From: Candidatus Scalindua sp. SCAELEC01
GTDB taxonomy: Bacteria; Planctomycetota; Brocadiia; Brocadiales; Scalinduaceae
Direction: 5' to 3'
DNA: 57,452 nucleotides
NCBI GenBank assembly: GCA_004282745.1
Contig: SHMT01000030.1
Location: 1 to 57,452, forward strand
The stretch's first letter is position 1. Each line of letters begins with the position of its first letter. Shown here in pieces: positions 1,490 through 56,885 of the stretch. Made by a program: the position numbers and the translations under genes. The notes below the pieces were generated by a model. The model had not been told where the DNA came from. It did not search any database and saw nothing but the letters and a program-made list of their open reading frames with translations.

Positions 1490-2255
1490 ATGAATAGAGT
1501 ATTGAGACTTATTGTTACATTAGGAGTATTCCTTTCGATCGGTTGCACACACAGTCTTTATCGCTATAGCTTTTCACTCGTCACCCCTTATGATGAGGAG
1601 CTAAGATACGATGATGGCGATGTCTCTTTTCAATTTGTTCCTACTGCGGAATCGATTTGGGTGTCAATTCACAACAAGACAGATGGTGCTATCTACCTAA
1701 TAATGAATGAGGCGGAATTTATTGATGTATGGGGGAAGCAGCACTATCTACTTTTTGGGGAGAGCTATGCTCTATCAATGCAGGAGTTCATCAACAACAA
1801 TAATTAGTGTTTGAACGAAAACTACCCATCTACTACGTTGCTGCAACAATTTCGAAATTCTCAAGTACAATTGTACGTTCCGGTTACGATATTGTTACGC
1901 GCCTTGTACCTGGGCACTTTTCATTCAAACACAGGGTTTTCGTTCAGACACTAATTATGCACATTCAATAGAGATTGATCCCGGGGCTATAACAGAGGGG
2001 AATATATGGATTAATACATGGACGGGGTCAGACATTGGTGATGAGTGGTCAACCGTTACCGCTACGGATATTGACTACCTGGACCACGATATGCTTCCTA
2101 CACACGCTAATTCTCAAAAAAATACAACGCTTATAGACTCTCTGTTCTATCTTGTTCTGCCGGTTCATTTTGACGGGTATATGAGGGGTTACGATTTCAC
2201 TTTCATGATAGATAATGTAGAGGTTGCTGATACAAAATCAAGTACCTCCAACTAA
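1490..2255 (+). pseudogene. Lipoprotein gene split by a MITE insertion
   Basis: The ATG at 1490 opens MNRVLRLIVTLGVFLSIGC, a signal peptide with lipobox LSIG|C (Cys19). The frame runs 105 codons and then meets a TAG built from the last target base plus the first two bases of the MITE (1806-1952). Removing the MITE and one copy of the AATT duplication (1806-1956 in total) joins codon TAT and continues in frame for 98 more codons without a stop to the TAA at 2253-2255. The ancestral gene therefore encoded a 204-aa lipoprotein of unknown function. Both halves look intact apart from the insertion, so disruption appears recent. The upstream half could still make a truncated lipoprotein of 105 aa. 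Confidence 0.85.
1806..1952 (-). mobile_element. MITE copy A (147 bp, TSD AATT)
   Basis: Terminal inverted repeats AGTGTTTGAACGAAAAC and GTTTTCGTTCAGACACT bound a 147-bp element with no coding capacity. The central palindrome GTACAATTGTAC is conserved in all copies. The direct repeat AATT flanks it (1802-1805 and 1953-1956). It is inverted relative to the copies at 20930, 29776 and 56739. It splits the lipoprotein gene. Confidence 0.9.
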
Positions 2256-20929: not shown

Positions 20930-21076
20930 AGTGTCTGAACGAAAACCCTGTGTTTGAATGAAAAGTGCCTAGGTACAAGGCGCGCAATAATTTCGTAACC
21001 GGAACGTACAATTGTACTTGAGGATTGAGAAATTATTGCAGCAACGCAGTAGATGGGTAGTTTTCGTTCAAACACT
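20930..21076 (+). mobile_element. MITE copy B (147 bp, TSD AAAT)
   Basis: Ends AGTGTCTGAACGAAAAC and GTTTTCGTTCAAACACT with the central GTACAATTGTAC palindrome. Flanking AAAT duplications are at 20926-20929 and 21077-21080. It separates a putative promoter from the PII-3 gene. Confidence 0.9.
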
Positions 21077-29692: not shown

Positions 29693-29775
29693 GGGGTCAG
29701 GGAAGAAGCATGGTTTCCTTGTTGCATCCCGCTTCAATATGTATCCCTATTTTAATCGTAAATTTGATTTATATA

Positions 29776-29919
29776 GTGTCTGAACGAAAACCCTGTGTTT
29801 GAATGAAAAGTGCCTAGGTACAAGGCGCGCTGATTTCGTAACCGGAACGTACAATTGTACTTGAGGATTACGAAATTATTGCAGCAACGCAGTAGATGGG
29901 TAGTTTTCGTTCAAACACT
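29776..29919 (+). mobile_element. MITE copy C (144 bp, TSD ATAT)
   Basis: Same termini and central palindrome as the other copies, three bases shorter internally. ATAT flanks it at 29772-29775 and 29920-29923. Its right duplication overlaps the TATACT end of hairpin-repeat copy 4, so it inserted at the very edge of that repeat. Confidence 0.9.
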
Positions 29920-29920
29920 A

Positions 29921-30087
29921 TATACTCATCTTATAATAGTTTTCGGATAAAATCCGAGATCAATTGAGCGAGTAAAGTCCTCGGCGCCTTTTGTCCGGGG
30001 ATACCTTCACCAGGATTTGGTTTCCGGGCGACGCTCTTTCTGGCGGGGACGGGTAAAACCGAAAACCAAATCGGTTTTCGTATAGTA
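29921..30087 (-). repeat. Hairpin-rich intergenic repeat (TATACT family), copy 4
   Basis: 167 bp in reverse orientation. CGGATAAAATCCG lies near its left end and ACCGAAAACCAAATCGGT near its right. It carries a GC-rich centre related to copy 1. The 549-bp gap between the glycosyltransferase and hemW holds this repeat and a MITE but no gene. Confidence 0.8.
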
Positions 30088-56738: not shown

Positions 56739-56885
56739 AGTGTCTGAACGAAAACCCTGTGTTTGAATGAAAAGTGCCCAGGTACAAGGCGCGTAACAAT
56801 TTAGTAACCGGAACGTACAATTGTACTTGAGGATTTCGAAATTATTGCAGCAACGTAGTAGATGGGTAGTTTTCGTTCAAACACT
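56739..56885 (+). mobile_element. MITE copy D (147 bp, TSD AACT)
   Basis: Same termini, length and central palindrome as copies A and B. AACT flanks it at 56735-56738 and 56886-56889. It lies in a gene-poor stretch between parA and the right end. The rest of 56415-56738 shows nothing. Confidence 0.9.

Follow-up and report, generated by a model that had tools for sequence, protein, structure and literature searches.

A MITE with ISNCY-type ends very probably inactivates a predicted lipoprotein gene in a Scalindua-type anammox bacterium

Organization of the interrupted gene

The window, the whole stretch of 57,452 nucleotides analyzed here, derives from contig SHMT01000030.1 of Candidatus Scalindua sp. 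SCAELEC01, a marine anammox planctomycete. Near its start, a plus-strand open reading frame of 105 codons (1490-1807) ends in a TAG at 1805-1807. The 5′ part of the gene occupies positions 1490-1804 on the plus strand, with a signal peptide containing Cys19, and the 3′ part lies at 1956-2255 on the same strand, comprising 99 codons (1956-2252) and a terminal TAA. The first in-frame start codon of the 3′ part occurs only at 2091. Between the two parts lies a 147-bp MITE (1806-1952, plus strand) with the ends AGTGTTTGAACGAAAAC ... GTTTTCGTTCAGACACT, flanked by a left AATT target site duplication at 1802-1805 that conforms to the family rule ANNT and by a matching right copy at 1953-1956, both on the plus strand.

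A preliminary description of this locus held that the TAG was created at the junction, and the sequence confirms this: the T belongs to the AATT duplication and the AG to the element. It also proposed that excising 151 bp joins 105 and 98 codons in frame; the in-frame joining stands, while the downstream part numbers 99 codons rather than 98. Deletion of positions 1802-1952, that is, the 147-bp element and one AATT, restores an uninterrupted frame of 204 codons (1490-2255) that ends in TAA and contains no further stop or frameshift. The insertion both brings in a stop and shifts the reading frame, because 151 is not divisible by three.

Homologs spanning the junction

The joined 204-aa protein was used as a query against 59 whole genomes from the host's order. 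At all 19 homologous Scalinduaceae loci examined, the alignment ran across the junction in register and ungapped, with no gap in either sequence over residues 95-122. Eight ortholog-like loci from other genomes of the same family share 46-52% identity with the joined protein over nearly its whole length; their products are of similar length and align gap-free at the junction (e.g., LSMQEFINNNNYAHSIEIDPGAITEGNI versus SAMKDFVKNDLYLNSIRIDPKSTSEGNI). The identities of the N-terminal and C-terminal halves are alike (e.g., 0.51/0.54), as expected if both had evolved as one protein until recently. An alignment of 17 sequences revealed invariant residues on either side of the joint, including C19, G82, G90, G120, W123, N125, W127, and P174. 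Uninterrupted homologs thus cross the insertion point, whereas no homolog of the close group was found to end at or near residue 105. These alignments uphold the earlier proposal of a 204-aa ancestral product and exclude an outcome that would have spoken against it, namely the lack of any homolog spanning the junction.

The named homolog records belong mostly to Candidatus Scalindua. Elsewhere in its own genome, the host retains two intact but distant paralogs (34-37% identity). The genus-mate genome G001 holds only a 36%-identical relative, and no intact ortholog is known from the same genus, for which G001 was searched. When lpxD and three other neighbors from the window were tested in relatives, none lay beside the lipoprotein gene; orthology is therefore based on sequence rather than synteny.

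Structure and distribution of the inserted element

The arms of the element (1800-1822 and 1936-1958) form inverted repeats that are 96% complementary, with 17-bp terminal inverted repeats differing by one mismatch (AGTGTTTGAACGAAAAC / AGTGTCTGAACGAAAAC). At 147 bp, with a longest overlapping frame of 54 codons, the element carries no transposase gene of its own. It is short, repeated, and bounded by terminal inverted repeats and a target duplication, the last two of which bear out its earlier designation as a MITE-like transposable element. The MITE also folds as a hairpin. As additional observations, positions 1806-1952 are approximately 70% identical to their own reverse complement over 126 bp, constituting a long imperfect palindrome, and a diverged second copy of the MITE end lies approximately 20 bp inside the right terminus.

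Matches to the end pattern numbered 491 across the 4.59-Mb genome at no more than two mismatches, compared with one for the control pattern; since these are terminal repeats, the family comprises about 245 complete copies. Within the 473 kb read directly, 46 matches were present, of which 22 were full-length. The window itself harbors three further copies on the minus strand, at 20930-21076 (duplication AAAT), 29775-29919 (ATAT), and 56739-56885 (AACT), none of which lies in a spanning frame. Identical 4-bp ANNT duplications flank nearly all well-preserved copies, usually within TANNTA. The recurrence of the 147-bp sequence throughout the genome with matching 4-bp duplications, together with the 19 loci that cross the joint gap-free, shows that the interrupted gene is not a chance arrangement. 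The same evidence supports the original claim that the MITE moved into a gene.

Because the draft consists of 104 contigs and the element occurs in hundreds of copies, the usual condition for a mis-join is present, and a chimera in which this multi-copy repeat links two unrelated fragments deserves mention. Such an artifact is exceedingly improbable, because a mis-join would explain neither the identical AATT on the two flanks nor two halves that follow directly on each other within one protein family, with residues neither lost nor gained at the joint.

With a T closing the duplication and AG opening the element, one frame invariably encounters TAG at the left joint; by symmetry, the same applies to the opposite strand. 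Another frame through the element meets a TGA within nine bases (AGTGTTTGA / AGTGTCTGA), and the third runs through but exits shifted. With a TAG, a TGA, or a shifted exit in the three frames, no reading frame is predicted to tolerate the insertion of this MITE.

Diverged copies of the MITE, with up to 87% identity, are present in the genus-mate G001. Separately, three copies in the host genome (C88:19597, C88:51923, and C88:137137) begin with AGTGGT instead of AGTGTT and are 75-83% identical to the MITE; judging from their sequences, they may belong to a branch of the family that is older or distinct. A further repeat family, modular in structure, was also observed at 1138-1386, approximately 100 bp before the start of the lipoprotein gene, with the pattern TATACTAAAACCGATTTGGTTTTCGG ... 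TTTTATCCGAAAAC.ATTATGAG.TG.GTATA. The stretches sampled contain dispersed relatives of this repeat, roughly 107 to 250 bp in length, some of which are inserted in MITE copies (contigs C1, C88, and C99). At 29775-30084, a MITE copy directly adjoins a repeat of this second family, and a similar pairing occurs in stretch L030. No Rfam family or tRNA was detected when the window was scanned.

Age of the insertion and frequency of insertions within genes

The window copy differs at 2 of 147 positions from a consensus of 47 copies, a sample enriched for copies resembling that of the window. These few differences and the lack of any further lesion in the joined frame point to a recent insertion; given the enrichment of the sample, we describe it only as fairly young.

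After in silico excision, none of the 21 other sampled full-length copies lay within a frame reaching 100 codons, in contrast to 74% of random positions. Among the 29 copies closest to that of the window, two of which also fall within the sampled stretches, 2 had a frame of this minimum length running across the site. One further in-gene insertion was convincing: in L023 (approximately 1507-1653), a Poly_export/SLBB polysaccharide-export gene is broken after residue 153 of 285, and excision of the MITE restores its frame. The other candidate, upstream of an MltA gene in L010, was rejected, as the joint precedes the likely start codon when judged by eye. The break in the lipoprotein gene is one of few surviving in-gene insertions of this MITE. 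Either purifying selection or a preference for AT-rich spacers as targets could account for their rarity, and the data fit both alike.

Origin of the element and its possible driver

In genomes G024 and G026, from a related family within this order, an insertion sequence (IS) of 1885 bp (L085, L086, and L097) shares with the MITE the 17-bp ends AGTGTCTGAACGAAAAC and a 4-bp ANNT duplication, in this case AAGT. It encodes a 515-aa protein identified as an ISNCY transposase (NF033593, E=7.6e-141, above the cut-off). In contrast to the MITE, it contains this transposase and has a different interior beyond the ends, and it was not found in the assembly containing the window. The MITE thus has the same ends and duplication length as an IS that encodes an ISNCY transposase, and a transposase of this type presumably moved it. 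The related family also contains elements of 133-134 bp (L087, L095, and L096) that have the same terminal repeats, similar size, and ANNT-type flanks. Because their interior sequence differs from that of the MITE, they appear to be a parallel MITE of the same IS group.

In the host genome, a PF01609 search for a transposase detected nothing, and the specific ISNCY transposase was not found in the 104-contig draft assembly. The only ISNCY trace is a truncated transposase remnant (L110, contig C1:30237-30680) near a contig end, whose terminus AGTTTTTGTACGGAAA differs from the MITE ends. Full elements related to this remnant, with ends AGTTTCTGTACGGAAA, were observed in other genomes of the family (L113 and L116). 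Among the first 100 exact terminal-repeat matches listed, none had a contig start only a few hundred bases away, unlike matches in G046 or G051.

Many of the approximately 245 copies are nearly identical to the consensus. We tentatively suggest, as a scenario somewhat less probable than its alternatives taken together, that this is an orphan ISNCY-type MITE that underwent a recent burst and has no matching transposase left, its driver having been lost or only transiently active, with the lipoprotein break among the few in-gene insertions to survive.

Precise excision is generally rare for bacterial IS and MITE elements. It is very unlikely that the insertion is reversible in the population, with precise or near-precise excision restoring the gene in some cells, even though removal of 151 bp restores the frame exactly and the family contains many near-identical copies. 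The assembly likewise contains no uninterrupted form of the junction and, as described above, no transposase of the matching type.

The predicted lipoprotein and the consequence of the insertion

The designation of the product as a lipoprotein, made in the preliminary description, is plausible. Cys19 follows a hydrophobic stretch and is invariant in 17 aligned homologs, several orthologs have LAGC-type lipoboxes, and the protein's own -3 residue, Ser, is less canonical. Neither half gave a significant match in Pfam or NCBIfam, the homologs likewise lacked Pfam matches, and a sequence search of solved structures produced only chance ribosomal matches. A structure model of an ortholog was of moderate quality only (pLDDT 71, pTM 0.69) and mostly beta, with long, confidently predicted strands before and after the break. 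No solved structure matched this model well; the fold search yielded weak, generic beta-sandwich matches, the best being YjhA of B. subtilis (E 0.012). The fold is thus probably beta-sandwich-like. Our best guess is that this lipoprotein has a binding or structural role at the surface or in the periplasm, and that the lost gene was partly redundant, since two paralogs remain.

The 5′ part retains its signal peptide, Cys19, and an intact frame, and the MITE folds as a hairpin; one might accordingly ask whether the 105-aa truncated lipoprotein is still functional, the element only trimming it or supplying a terminator. We consider this unlikely, given the invariant columns on either side of the junction, the lack of any detected close homolog ending near residue 105, and a predicted fold that takes strands from both halves. 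With long strands predicted in the ortholog on either side of the break, the truncated protein would not be expected to work.

The explanation in which we have high confidence is that, in a Scalindua-type anammox bacterium, a gene encoding a predicted lipoprotein of approximately 204 aa was turned into a pseudogene by the insertion of a MITE with ISNCY-type ends. In the proposed sequence of events, the non-autonomous element, mobilized by a DDE transposase acting in trans, would have entered an AATT target inside the gene, with duplication of the 4-bp target on insertion. Translation would then halt at the junction TAG after codon 105, and the second half would have no in-frame start for another 45 codons; for these two reasons, the gene is regarded as a pseudogene.

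Comparison with known systems

This locus provides a verified, base-exact case of gene loss through a MITE in an uncultured anammox lineage, and it ties a MITE family to ISNCY insertion sequences via shared ends and a shared duplication rule. It also reveals a Scalinduaceae lipoprotein family that has no Pfam or NCBIfam match and could be overlooked if only this genome were annotated. Inactivation of a gene by a MITE is in itself an ordinary, well-known mechanism, reported in other bacteria (PMC10969869). A non-exhaustive search of open-licence literature, at abstract level, found no reports of such inactivation in the anammox lineage or by the ISNCY family, and the text of the review PMC10969869 mentions neither ISNCY nor Planctomycetes. 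The gene-inactivating bacterial MITEs that it covers include Chunjie of Geobacter uraniireducens, Correia of Neisseria, and MITEAba12 of Acinetobacter (PMC10969869). Like these, the present element is short and non-autonomous, possesses terminal inverted repeats and a target site duplication, and occurs in many copies that are mostly intergenic and occasionally in a gene. In a comparison that leaves the terminal repeats aside, it differs from them in its host, an anammox member of the Planctomycetota, in its ISNCY-type ends, and in its ANNT duplication.
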